A DNA stretch of 20,762 bases from a virus: positions 1 through 20,762 of IMG/VR virus record IMGVR_UViG_3300042507_007150; one strand, 5' to 3'. Shown one piece after another: positions 7,166-10,914 of the stretch. The stretch's first letter is position 1. Every line of letters begins with the position of its first letter. The position numbers were made by a program, and so were the translations under genes. The notes beneath the pieces were generated by a model that was given only the letters and a program-made list of their open reading frames with translations, made no database searches and was not told where the DNA came from.

Positions 7166-7344
7166 AGATCTACTACGTCCGCGTCATCTCGGAGGCGTAC
7201 GTCCGCGCAGCGTCGGAAGAGGAAGCGCGCGAGATCGCCCGCGGCCTCTACGACGGGAGAGGCGTCGACGCCGTGCGACCGCCGCAAACCATCATCGGCG
7301 TGTGGGATCGACACGCGCTCGACGGAAGGAACGAAAAGCCATGA
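7162..7344 (+). CDS. Small alpha/beta protein, unknown function
   Basis: A 60-residue protein from ATG 7162 (ATGA overlap). The N-terminus is MKIYYVRVISEAYVRAASEE, then EEAREIARGLYDGRG and IIGVWDR. The beta-(V)-A-A-S-E-E-E-A-R-E-I-A layout recalls small phage proteins with a strand, a helix opening with EEEA and a closing strand. Its ATG neighbourhood shares 14 identical bases with the next gene's start. No catalytic residues are evident. Confidence 0.65.
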   Translation: MKIYYVRVISEAYVRAASEEEAREIARGLYDGRGVDAVRPPQTIIGVWDRHALDGRNEKP

Positions 7345-8351
7345 AGATCCCCGACCCCCAACACACCATCGCCGCCCTCATCGACGCGGCGCACGAGGCT
7401 AAGCGCGCTTCCCACAAGGAAGTCTTCCGCCCTCACATGGGCGCGTCCACCCTCGGCGAGAAGTGCGATCGCAAGCTCTGGCTTGGCTTCCGATGGGCGG
7501 TGCGCGAGAACTTTCCAGGCCGCATCCTGCGCGTCTTCCGTCGCGGCCAGAACGAGGAGGCGCAAGTCGTCGAAGACCTTCGCGCGATCGGCTGCAAGGT
7601 GCGCTCGACCGGCGCCGAGCAGACACGCGTCGAGTTCGGCTCGCACGTCTCGGGCTCGATCGACGGCATCATCACCTCCGGCGTGCCCGACGCGCCGAAG
7701 AAGGCCCACGTCCTCGAGATCAAGACGCACTCGAAGAAGTCGTTCGAGGCGCTCGAGAAGGATGGCGTCGAGAAGGCGCATCCGAAGCACTTCGCGCAGG
7801 TGCAGGCGTACATGCTCGGGACCGGCATCGACCGTGCCCTCTACGTTGCAGTCTGCAAGGACGACGACCGCCTCCACGTCGAGCGCTTCAAGCTCGACAA
7901 GGAACGCGCAGAGCGCCTCGTGGAGCGCGGGAAGCGCCTCGCGACGCAGGATGAGATCCCGCCGCCGCTTTCCACCGATCCGAGCTGGTACGAGTGTAAG
8001 TTCTGCTCGGCGCACGACCTCTGCCACGGCTCGAAGGTCGTTCGTGAGGTGAACTGTCGAACCTGCGCGCACTCGACCGCCACGCCGGATTCGACGTGGA
8101 CGTGCGCGCGGCACGGCGACAACGTGATGCCGACCGACTGGATGCGCGAGGCGCACGAGTGTCACGCCCTGCACGAGCACATGGCGCCGTGGCCCATCAC
8201 CTACGACGACGCGGGCGACGCGGTGCACGTCATCGACGGGACCGAGGTGCGCGGCTTCGCAACGGCGGAAGTCATCGCGAACCCGAAGGCGTGCGTCGAC
8301 CCGACGCTCGTGCAGCTTCGCAGAAAGTTTGATGGAAAGGTGGTGGGATGA
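7341..8351 (+). CDS. Cas4/RecB-like PD-(D/E)XK exonuclease with cysteine clusters
   Basis: A 336-residue nuclease from ATG 7341 (ATGA overlap). Core PD-(D/E)XK motifs are D108 in GSIDGI, E126-I-K128 in VLEIKTH, and Q153/Q155 in FAQVQAYM. One cysteine near the N-terminus (C42 in GEKCDRKLW) and three after the core (C219, C222, C228 in ECKFCSAHDLC) match the iron-sulfur ligand layout of Cas4/AddB-type nucleases. A second cluster follows (C239, C242, C255, C274), probably zinc. Such enzymes resect DNA ends for phage recombination. It lies downstream of the Sak4/DUF669 genes and next to a methyltransferase and helicase. The nuclease fold is secure; substrate polarity and cluster type are inference. 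No CRISPR array or cas1/cas2 accompanies it. Confidence 0.87.
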   Translation: MKIPDPQHTIAALIDAAHEAKRASHKEVFRPHMGASTLGEKCDRKLWLGFRWAVRENFPGRILRVFRRGQNEEAQVVEDLRAIGCKVRSTGAEQTRVEFGSHVSGSIDGIITSGVPDAPKKAHVLEIKTHSKKSFEALEKDGVEKAHPKHFAQVQAYMLGTGIDRALYVAVCKDDDRLHVERFKLDKERAERLVERGKRLATQDEIPPPLSTDPSWYECKFCSAHDLCHGSKVVREVNCRTCAHSTATPDSTWTCARHGDNVMPTDWMREAHECHALHEHMAPWPITYDDAGDAVHVIDGTEVRGFATAEVIANPKACVDPTLVQLRRKFDGKVVG

Positions 8352-9286
8352 ATGAGCTGGCTCTTTTCGCGGGCGCTGGTGGCGGCATACTCGGAGGCCA
8401 CCTGCTTGGATGGCGAACCGTGTGCGCCGTCGAGTGGAACGCCTACGCCGCAGGCGTACTCGTCGCACGGCAAAATGACGGACTTCTCCCGCCTTTCCCG
8501 ATTTGGGATGATGTGCAGTCCTTTGACGGACGACCATGGCGAGGCCGTGTTGACGTGGTGTCTGGAGGCTTCCCTTGCCAGGACATCTCCGCTGCCGGAG
8601 GTGGAGCCGGTATCGCCGGAGCGCGGAGCGGACTGTGGCGAGAGATGGCGCGCATCGTCGGCGAAGTTCGACCCCGCTTCGTCTTCGTGGAAAACAGCCC
8701 GCTCCTTGTTCGCCGAGGGCTTGCCGTGGTCCTCGGTGATCTTGCCTCGATGGGGTACGATGCGCGGTGGGGAGTGCTGGGAGCGCGCCATGTCGGAGCT
8801 CCCCACAAGCGAGACCGAATCTGGCTCGTTGCTGCCGACGCCGACCGCGCAGCAGTACGGCACACGGAACAACGGCAAGCGCGGGGACGGCTCCACGTTC
8901 AAGACGGCGGGAGCCCCTTCGCTGACGACGATGGCTCGGCGCAACATGTGGCCGACGCCGACAGCAACCCTGGGCACAAATGGAGGGCTTGTTACACCGT
9001 CAAAAGCAAGATGGGGCGGAACGCTGATCGAGGCAATCAGTGCAACAACATGGCCGACCCCAGCGGCGCGGGACTATCGACACCCGAACGCGAAGAGCTA
9101 CGCGGAGCGCGGTGGCGGGAAGAAAGGCGAGCAGCTTCCAAATGCGGTTGGTGGGCCTCTGAACCCGACGTGGGTCGAGTGGCTCATGGGGTGGCCGCTC
9201 GGGTGGACCGCCTTCGAGCGCTTGGGAACGGACAGGTTCCAAGCGTGGCGGCGCTCGCATGGCAAACGCTGACGAGGGCGCGATGA
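8348..9286 (+). CDS. DNA cytosine-C5 methyltransferase
   Basis: A 312-residue enzyme transferring a methyl group from S-adenosylmethionine to carbon 5 of cytosine. Motifs appear in order: I FAGAGGG (7-13), IV GGFPCQDIS (73-81, catalytic C77), VI ENSP (115-118), VIII HVGAPHKRDRIW (148-159), X ALGNGQVP (291-298). The target-recognition region (about 163-275) is loosely structured with repeated ADAD/ADP units. ATG 8348 overlaps the nuclease stop. I see no cognate endonuclease beside it, so protection of phage DNA is likelier than a restriction pair. Oddly, GC at third codon positions is low: by hand 64% over codons 1-50 and 68% over 50 codons from 8828, against 86% in the first 50 codons of the nuclease, while first positions are unusually GC-rich. 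The +1 frame is open almost throughout (8352-9272). Confidence 0.92.
   Translation: MNELALFAGAGGGILGGHLLGWRTVCAVEWNAYAAGVLVARQNDGLLPPFPIWDDVQSFDGRPWRGRVDVVSGGFPCQDISAAGGGAGIAGARSGLWREMARIVGEVRPRFVFVENSPLLVRRGLAVVLGDLASMGYDARWGVLGARHVGAPHKRDRIWLVAADADRAAVRHTEQRQARGRLHVQDGGSPFADDDGSAQHVADADSNPGHKWRACYTVKSKMGRNADRGNQCNNMADPSGAGLSTPEREELRGARWREERRAASKCGWWASEPDVGRVAHGVAARVDRLRALGNGQVPSVAALAWQTLTRAR
8352..9272 (+). CDS. Overlapping +1-frame protein nested in the methyltransferase gene
   Basis: A 306-residue open frame on the same strand as the methyltransferase, starting four bases later (ATGAATG) and ending 14 bases earlier. AAGGTGG (8337-8343) is spaced 8 bases from this ATG and only 4 from the methyltransferase ATG. 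Composition is balanced, unlike the Arg/Ser/Ala-rich +1 reading of the nuclease upstream. Its third-position GC is 78% and 86% in the two 50-codon samples, near the neighbour's 86%. Visible blocks: MSWLFSRALV (1-10), SSWKTARSLF (111-120), LPRWGTMRGGECWE (131-144), three (L/W)PTP(T/A)A units (161, 200, 234) and LNPTWVEWLMGWPLGWT (270-286). I recall phage proteins of unknown function, sometimes labelled methyltransferase, with MSWLFS starts and WVEWLMGxPxGWT ends; I cannot verify this. No methyltransferase catalytic motif. Alternative: a non-translated frame kept open by composition or a fossil of frame exchange. Confidence 0.6.
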   Translation: MSWLFSRALVAAYSEATCLDGEPCAPSSGTPTPQAYSSHGKMTDFSRLSRFGMMCSPLTDDHGEAVLTWCLEASLARTSPLPEVEPVSPERGADCGERWRASSAKFDPASSSWKTARSLFAEGLPWSSVILPRWGTMRGGECWERAMSELPTSETESGSLLPTPTAQQYGTRNNGKRGDGSTFKTAGAPSLTTMARRNMWPTPTATLGTNGGLVTPSKARWGGTLIEAISATTWPTPAARDYRHPNAKSYAERGGGKKGEQLPNAVGGPLNPTWVEWLMGWPLGWTAFERLGTDRFQAWRRSHGKR

Positions 9287-10914
9287 AACTTCGCCCCTAC
9301 CAGCAGCGCGCGATCGACCAGCTCTACGACTGGTTCCGCGCGGGCAACACCGGGAACCCGTGCCTCGTCCTCCCGACGGGCGCGGGCAAGTCGCACATCG
9401 TCGCGGCGCTCTGCCACGACGCTTTGACGAACTGGCCCGAAACGCGCGTTCTCATGCTGACGCATGTGAAGGAGCTGATCGAACAGAGCGCCGCGAAGTT
9501 GCGCGCGCACTGGCCCGGTGCCCCGATGGGCATCTACTCGGCGTCCGTCGGCCGCAAGGAGCTCGGCGAGCCGATTACATTCGCGGGCATCCAGTCGATC
9601 CGCAAGCGCGCCGCCGAGCTCGGGCACGTCGACCTCGTCATCATCGACGAGGCGCACCTCGTCTCGCACAAGGACGAGGGAGGCTACCGCACGTTCATCG
9701 CCGACCTCCAACGAACGAACCCCGCGCTCCGCGTCGTCGGCCTCACCGCGACGCCGTACCGCCTCGGGCACGGGCTCATCACCGACGGCGACGCGCTCTT
9801 CGACGACCTCATCGAACCCGTGTCGATCGAGGAGCTCGTGCAACTTGGCTACCTCTCGCGCCTTCGCTCGAAGGTCACCGGCGCGCGCTTCGACACGACC
9901 GGCGTTCACACGCGCGGGGGCGAGTTCGTCGAAGCCGAGCTCCAGCGCGCGGTGAACACGAAAGACCAGAACGAGCGCGTCGTGCGCGAGGTCATCGGGC
10001 TTGCAGGCGACCGCCGCTCGTGGCTCTTCTTCTGCGCGGGCGTCGAGCACGCCGAGGCCGTGTGCGACGTGCTGCGCTCCAAGGGCGTCGAGGCCGCCTG
10101 CGTCACCGGGGCCACGCCGAAGGGCGAGCGTGAGCGCATCATCGACCGGTTCCGCCGCGGTGAACTTCGCGCGCTCACGAACGCAAACGTGCTCACGACC
10201 GGCTTCGATCACCCCGGCGTCGACCTCATCGCCATGCTTCGCCCGACCATGTCGCCGGGGCTCTACGTTCAGATGGCAGGCCGCGGGCTCCGCATCGCCG
10301 AAGGCAAGGCGGACTGCCTCGTCCTCGACTTCGCGGGCGTCGTCGAGCGCCACGGACCCATCACCGCCGTCGAGCCGCCGGGAAGGCGCCGCGATGGCAA
10401 CGGCGAAGCGCCCGTGAAGGTCTGCGACGCCTGCGCCGAGCTCGTGCATCCGACGGTGCGCGTGTGCCCGTCGTGCGGTCACGAGTTCCCGCTCCCCGAG
10501 CCGAAGAAGCTCGAGCTCCGCGACGTCGACATCATGGGGCCGGCGCCCGGCGCGCTCGTTCACGAGCTCCGCGTGACGGAGTGGGAATGGCGTCGCCACG
10601 TCGGGAGGACGTCGGGCAAGGAATCGCTGCGCGTCCGCTACTACGGCGGGCTAACGGAGTCGGTCGACGAGTACCTGTGCGTCGCCCATGACGGCTACCC
10701 CGGCGACAAGGCTCGGCGAACGCTCGCGCGCATCGCCACTGCCGCCGGCCTTTCGCCCGGCTGGTCGCTTGTCAACGACCTCGACGAGATTGCGCGCACG
10801 ATGAACGACGTTCCGCCGCCGAGCGTGGTACGCTACACGGTCAAGAAGCCGGGCGAGTTGCCCGAGATCCTGAAACGGGAGTGGGCCGATGTCCGCCGTG
10901 AAGAAGTGGCTTGA
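9283..10914 (+). CDS. Phage SF2 (DEAD/DEAH-type) helicase with zinc finger
   Basis: A 543-residue helicase. The start ATG 9283 overlaps the methyltransferase stop (ATGA); an ATG at 9259 in frame would add eight residues. Domain 1: RPYQQ (4-8), Walker A PTGAGKS (31-37), DEAH (122-125), TATP (155-158). Domain 2: VTGATPKGER (274-283), TTGFDHPGVD (305-314), motif VI QMAGRGLR (330-337). A zinc finger follows (C381, C384, C395, C398), then a C-terminal region with WRRHVGR and SLRVRYYGGL (448-457) also seen in other phage helicases of this type. It resembles ResIII/UvsW-like enzymes that remodel branched DNA or unwind at replication starts. Neighbours (Cas4-like nuclease, VRR-NUC) suggest recombination or fork processing. 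Confidence 0.9.
   Translation: MKLRPYQQRAIDQLYDWFRAGNTGNPCLVLPTGAGKSHIVAALCHDALTNWPETRVLMLTHVKELIEQSAAKLRAHWPGAPMGIYSASVGRKELGEPITFAGIQSIRKRAAELGHVDLVIIDEAHLVSHKDEGGYRTFIADLQRTNPALRVVGLTATPYRLGHGLITDGDALFDDLIEPVSIEELVQLGYLSRLRSKVTGARFDTTGVHTRGGEFVEAELQRAVNTKDQNERVVREVIGLAGDRRSWLFFCAGVEHAEAVCDVLRSKGVEAACVTGATPKGERERIIDRFRRGELRALTNANVLTTGFDHPGVDLIAMLRPTMSPGLYVQMAGRGLRIAEGKADCLVLDFAGVVERHGPITAVEPPGRRRDGNGEAPVKVCDACAELVHPTVRVCPSCGHEFPLPEPKKLELRDVDIMGPAPGALVHELRVTEWEWRRHVGRTSGKESLRVRYYGGLTESVDEYLCVAHDGYPGDKARRTLARIATAAGLSPGWSLVNDLDEIARTMNDVPPPSVVRYTVKKPGELPEILKREWADVRREEVA

Follow-up and report, generated by a model that had tools for sequence, protein, structure and literature searches.

Nested Same-Strand Genes Likely to Encode Two Polypeptides of One Phage Cytosine-5 Methyltransferase

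Two-polypeptide methyltransferases and the phage locus

The closest described systems to the locus analyzed here are cytosine-5 (C5) methyltransferases built of two polypeptides. In M.EcoHK31I (YGGCCR), the larger polypeptide carries motifs I-VIII and motif X, while the smaller carries motif IX (PMC3404938). The small M.EcoHK31I gene lies inside the large one in another reading frame, its beta polypeptide being about 176 aa long. Both proteins are reportedly needed in vitro (Lee, Kam and Shaw 1995, title, cited in PMC3404938). M.AquI (CYCGRG) is likewise divided into two polypeptides, the break falling between motifs VIII and IX (PMC3404938). When other C5 methyltransferases are split between motif VIII and the target-recognition domain, the parts are known to be able to complement each other (PMC3404938, PMC5944983). 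A two-polypeptide C5 methyltransferase in overlapping frames has a precedent in M.EcoHK31I. In the literature searched, we found no description of the overlap reported here in phages, nor of the near-complete nesting, the breadth of distribution, or the switching among one-chain, split and nested forms detailed below.

The window, meaning the whole stretch of DNA analyzed, is an IMG/VR virus record of 20,762 bases. Its central operon encodes a Sak4-like annealing protein, a single-strand-binding protein, a Cas4/YqaJ-type exonuclease, a methyltransferase and a helicase. Within the methyltransferase gene, two frames on the same strand, here termed alpha and beta, are open over nearly the same interval. 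We propose that they are nested genes for two polypeptides of one phage C5 methyltransferase, a reading we consider likely, with the production of both polypeptides, their assembly and their activity remaining inferences. The features of the locus are as follows.

7302-8351, + strand: upstream neighbor, Cas4/YqaJ-type exonuclease (phrog_1990, 3.8e-93); its stop overlaps the alpha start
8337-8343, + strand: ribosome-binding site AAGGTGG (sequence feature), 4 nt ahead of the alpha ATG and 8 nt ahead of the beta ATG
8348-9286, + strand: alpha frame, 312 aa, C5-methyltransferase polypeptide with motifs I-VIII and X, without motif IX
8348-8354, + strand: ATGAATG (sequence feature); the alpha ATG overlaps the nuclease stop TGA, and the beta ATG lies immediately 3' of that TGA
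8352-9272, + strand: beta frame, 306 aa, +1 overlapping gene with PTPxA repeats (likely target-recognition region) and motif IX
8366-8383, + strand: motif I (FAGAGG), alpha frame
8564-8581, + strand: motif IV with the catalytic PCQ (GGFPCQ), alpha frame, residues conserved
8690-8707, + strand: motif VI (ENSPLL), alpha frame
8798-8818, + strand: motif VIII region (APHKRDR), alpha frame
8835-9068, + strand: three PTPxA repeats, starting at 8835, 8952 and 9054, beta frame
9159-9209, + strand: motif IX, LNPTWVEWLMGWPLGWT, beta frame
9221-9241, + strand: motif X (LGNGQVP), alpha frame
9259-10914, + strand: downstream neighbor, DEAD/ResIII helicase (phrog_16, 9.2e-107; PF04851)

Although 9259 is given as the first position of the helicase frame, its likelier start is the ATG at 9283, which overlaps the alpha stop (ATGA). 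Elsewhere in the window, an 844-aa frame at 232-2766 has no PHROG or Pfam match. Read in frame 0, the PTPxA repeats of beta are the Asp/Ala-rich stretches VAADADRA, HVADADSN and NMADPSGA of alpha.

The division of motifs in the window is that of M.EcoHK31I, namely I-VIII with X in one polypeptide and IX in the other. The two differ in that the window's beta frame begins only 4 nt past the alpha start and spans almost the whole of alpha (306 vs. 312 aa), and in that the likely target-recognition region lies in beta, whereas the predicted region of EcoHK31I is placed in the larger subunit (PMC3404938). We do not file the window pair in the EcoHK31I family, homology and joint activity being untested. 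M.AquI resembles certain relatives of the locus, the Paraburkholderia locus L219, the Spirochaetia locus L235 and split actinophage genes, in which motifs IX and X stand together on the second polypeptide. It differs from the window, where the catalytic polypeptide retains motif X and one gene is almost wholly nested in the other.

Openness, start codon and selection in the second frame

The first-pass annotation had reported the frames at 8348-9286 and, in +1, at 8352-9272 (306 codons) as open, and these coordinates proved exact. It had also claimed that the usual GC signature of codons was shifted into the second frame, which held, with computed values agreeing with its hand counts. Over the alpha frame, GC at first codon positions (GC1) is 75% and at third positions (GC3) 64%, with corresponding values of 76 and 64% for codons 1-50 and of 88 and 68% for the 50 codons from 8828. 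The neighboring nuclease has GC1 66% and GC3 87% as a whole, and 66 and 76% in its first 50 codons from 7302. Among related loci, GC1 exceeded GC3 in the alpha frame of all 150 of the 150 measured. The openness of the +1 frame is by itself only weak to moderate evidence in so GC-rich a gene: when the gene's own codons were shuffled synonymously, 0.6% of the shuffles yielded a +1 ORF of at least 306 codons, but the frame was equally open in 17% of recodings when codons were drawn from the usage of neighboring genes. It is comparison with relatives that decides the matter.

Relatives were collected in two scans: the one with alpha contributed 80 of 184 loci, and the one with beta a further 80 of at least 600. 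Stops were counted in 72 distinct loci chosen by alpha alone, against an expectation from synonymous shuffles. The +1 frame held 3 stops where 230 were expected, only two loci having any, while the +2 frame of the same loci held 1001 vs. 798 expected. Openness of the +1 frame was individually improbable at loci of 43-50% GC, and at a Leptospira plasmid locus of 42% GC both frames are open over their full length. In nearly all of the 254 loci fetched, the alpha motifs lie in frame 0 and the beta segments in +1, a layout common to hundreds of phage, prophage and plasmid relatives, and the +1 protein has hundreds of homologs. These loci occur in bins or genomes assigned to Proteobacteria, Spirochaetes, Verrucomicrobia, Planctomycetes, Nitrospirae, Chloroflexi, Acidobacteriota and archaea, although such host assignments probably reflect prophages or phage contigs.

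The start of beta is conserved. It lies 4 nt after the alpha start in 132 of the 139 pairs located. Of 198 loci, 175 use ATG for it and 10 use GTG. As the second codon of alpha, 165 loci have AAT and a single one AAC, whereas elsewhere in the same genes NAC is commoner than NAT (4517 vs. 2503); the choice of T in this codon therefore creates the beta ATG. Across loci, the distance from the ribosome-binding site to the beta ATG has a sharp maximum at 7 nt, a usual spacing for such a site, which puts the site 3 nt before the alpha codon. The suggestion that the site at 8337-8343 suits the second ATG better than the first thus held, both in the window (8 nt) and across loci. The first codon of alpha is ATG, GTG or TTG in most loci; in 22 of 138 it is TTA or CTN, which are not start codons, and there alpha must begin slightly upstream, as loci L019 and L009 suggest.

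To assess selection, we sorted all differences separating related pairs according to what each does in the two frames (SS, SN, NS or NN, the first letter standing for alpha and the second for beta). Pairs at 90-99% identity gave rates of 0.094 for SS, 0.023 for SN, 0.0165 for NS and 0.0051 for NN. Over 25 pairs at 80-99% identity, the SN/SS ratio (omega) of beta was 0.31 (0.25-0.39), vs. 0.82 (0.64-1.07) in the neighboring genes of the same 25 pairs, which served as controls; the NS/SS ratio of alpha over the 25 pairs was 0.28. Since NN/NS falls below 1 in the control genes as well (0.61), we relied on SN/SS and did not use NN/NS alone. The contrast between the two halves of the gene, drawn from 25 pairs, is one of dominance: up to motif VIII alpha is the stricter frame (NS/SS 0.07), and after motif VIII it is beta (NN/NS 0.41 for beta, NN/SN 0.89 for alpha). 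In the second half, pairs at 90-99% identity show roughly double the rate of change at first positions of alpha that they show at its third positions (0.096 vs. 0.045), and the linker of alpha between motifs VIII and X is weakly constrained. In the first half, the NN/NS of beta (0.59) is about that of the controls (0.61), and the constraint on beta there consequently rests on SN/SS, the avoidance of stops and the start codon. Both frames are thus under purifying selection, with alpha dominant in the first half and beta in the second.

The first-pass annotation had named what would refute an overlapping pair: a +1 frame freely interrupted in homologous genes, an absence of homologs of the +1 protein, and normal synonymous variation in the methyltransferase frame. 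None of these obtains: the +1 frame is not freely interrupted, homologs of its protein are numerous, and the methyltransferase frame shows restrained synonymous change. Its proposal of an almost fully nested gene pair is upheld on comparative evidence.

Motif division and the one-chain, split and nested relatives

Alpha matches PF00145 (6.6e-31) over residues 4-174 only, the catalytic half with PCQ, ENV-type and motif VIII residues, and also phrog_363 (1.2e-64). It had been described as a complete C5 methyltransferase with all main motifs, and this part of the first-pass annotation failed: motif IX is absent from alpha and present in beta, and alpha would be incomplete without it. Of 251 loci, 240 have the motif IX pattern in the +1 frame and 1 has it in alpha; for motif X, the corresponding counts are 4 in +1 and 235 in alpha.

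Beta matches phrog_1008 (8.6e-27) but no Pfam or NCBIfam family, and its profile found nothing significant among solved structures. All 134 of 134 aligned beta proteins match phrog_1008, which is labeled DNA methyltransferase; PHROG 26627, 35493 and 27243 are also beta homologs, listed as of unknown function, and none of these entries records an overlap with a second frame. The protein is built of a conserved N-terminal part, PTPxA repeats and a C-terminal block, LNPxWVEWLMGWPxGWT. The repeats, about 33 residues apart, usually number one to five and reach seven. We observe that this variation from one to seven (beta residues 160-265, L007-L166) resembles the tandem recognition modules of multispecific phage methyltransferases.

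The relation of beta to methyltransferases shows in enzymes that carry all their motifs in one chain. In gp71 of mycobacteriophage RitaG, a one-frame methyltransferase, LLPTPSASDG and LTAAFPEWMMGWPAGW follow the catalytic motifs in frame, and in one-chain actinophage relatives PTPxA and EWMMGWPxGW do likewise. Enzymes of the RitaG gp71 type share with the window pair the same catalytic half, the PTPxA segments and the EWMMGWPxGW motif IX, and differ in having all motifs in one frame and one chain (60 of 79 loci). In hhalign profile comparison, beta matched the one-chain actinophage methyltransferases at the C-terminal block (98.1%, E 1.2e-13), a match spanning just 22 columns, while the alpha profile matched the catalytic half of the one-chain family (100%, E 6.3e-43). 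The C-terminal block of that family aligns with RKLHPRECARVMGYPDSY of M.HhaI, its motif IX, followed by motif X; the score is weak alone, but the order is collinear. The one-chain family is predicted to fold as a whole C5 methyltransferase, its AlphaFold model (pLDDT 82, pTM 0.83, with the motif IX segment at a pLDDT of about 97) matching M.HhaI with Z 25 over its whole length (residues 1-362).

For beta alone, the AlphaFold model is poor (pLDDT 56.8, pTM 0.24), from an alignment built of the window and related loci only, and placing beta by fold was abandoned because this model was too poor for a fold search. Such a result is expected for half a domain, but would be expected of a poorly ordered protein too. 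Residues 1-150 of beta have no counterpart in one-chain enzymes, and the role of this N-terminal half is unexplained; it may hold the two chains together.

Intermediate arrangements occur among the relatives. Besides the 60 one-frame genes, 14 of the 79 RitaG relatives have the C-terminal part in the +1 frame, and in these split actinophages the +1 protein also carries motif X. Among the actinophage loci L275-L353, one-frame and +1-split forms are sometimes found in phages about 97% identical, and a single shift therefore converts one to the other. In L219 and L235, alpha stops soon after motif VIII and beta carries the repeats and motifs IX and X.

Several annotated records may be read in the light of this division. 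In Gordonia phages Float294 and Upyo (L005, L260), two adjacent "DNA methylase" genes are parts of one enzyme, with motifs I-VIII in one frame and the PTPxA repeats and motifs IX-X in the other. In Pseudomonas phage VB_PaD_phPA-G (L003, 2501-3229), only beta is annotated, as a "hypothetical protein," and the methyltransferase frame was missed. A prophage copy in E. coli PCP07014 (L255, 2000-2761) is annotated as a pseudogene with an internal stop. We rejected this last locus as a one-frame case, both of its frames being stopped at nearly the same place, which indicates that it has simply decayed; an apparent frame swap in Gallionella (L225) is most likely an indel and was left out.

Proposed enzyme, rival explanations and implications

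In the mechanism we propose, ribosomes would start at both codons under one ribosome-binding site. Alpha would supply the SAM-binding and catalytic motifs I-VIII together with motif X, and beta would supply DNA recognition, through the PTPxA region, and motif IX. The two would join into one active enzyme, neither being active alone, which the phage would use to methylate its own DNA against host restriction. The first-pass annotation had spoken of a defence/counter-defence gene; in our reading, beta most probably makes up the rest of this one enzyme and is not a separate product of that kind. The sequence evidence strongly favors translation of both frames, which is nevertheless inferred from sequence alone, there being no protein, expression or activity data.

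One rival holds that a single fused chain is made by ribosomal frameshifting from alpha into beta after motif VIII. In its favor, a +1 shift at that point would give a complete one-chain enzyme in L219, L235 and the 14 actinophage loci, and one-chain relatives do occur. In the type of locus seen in the window, however, a single shift would lose motif X, which lies in alpha, and the conserved beta ATG, the spacing of the ribosome-binding site and the selection on beta before motif VIII are left unexplained. On this evidence, which does not extend to slippery sites, we regard this explanation as very unlikely.

A second rival, which we also hold to be very improbable, is that beta is a separate protein with a task of its own, such as regulation, inhibition of host restriction or counter-defence, and overlaps the methyltransferase by chance. 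Beta does have its own start and a 150-residue N-terminal part absent from one-chain enzymes, and it has neither a Pfam family nor a confident fold alone. Against this, its motif IX and PTPxA segments sit within one-chain methyltransferases, alpha lacks motif IX and would be incomplete alone, and in L219, L235 and the actinophages the +1 protein has motif X as well.

The last, that the +1 frame is an untranslated accident of high GC and methyltransferase conservation, can draw on the 17% of random recodings with the neighbors' codon usage that leave the frame equally open and on conserved alpha codons, which explain part of the similarity among beta sequences, but it is all but excluded, being refuted on comparative grounds by the depletion of stops (3 vs. 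230, and seen also at 43-50% GC), the choice of AAT over AAC at the beta start (165 vs. 1), the constraint on beta (0.31 vs. 0.82 in controls) and the faster change of alpha first positions in the second half.

Long, near-complete overlaps on one strand are seldom found, and for many of those proposed the sole evidence is an open frame. In the present case, the depletion of stops, the choice of start codon, the spacing of the ribosome-binding site and selection in two frames point the same way at many loci, and a role for the second frame within the same enzyme is plausible. Each locus in the annotated records examined is listed with a single gene, and one component is therefore missing from them, while recoded cloning of the annotated gene would silently destroy the other frame. 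A bolder reading, toward which we lean without much confidence, is that these loci represent a large unrecognized class of phage methyltransferases in which both subunits of one enzyme are encoded in almost completely overlapping frames, DNA specificity is set by a variable number of tandem PTPxA modules in the second frame, and +1 shifts convert one-chain, split and fully nested forms into one another over evolution. If true, this would place the pair among the most widespread fully nested genes known in bacterial viruses. The natural occurrence of one-chain, split and nested forms makes the origin of the overlapping genes directly testable.
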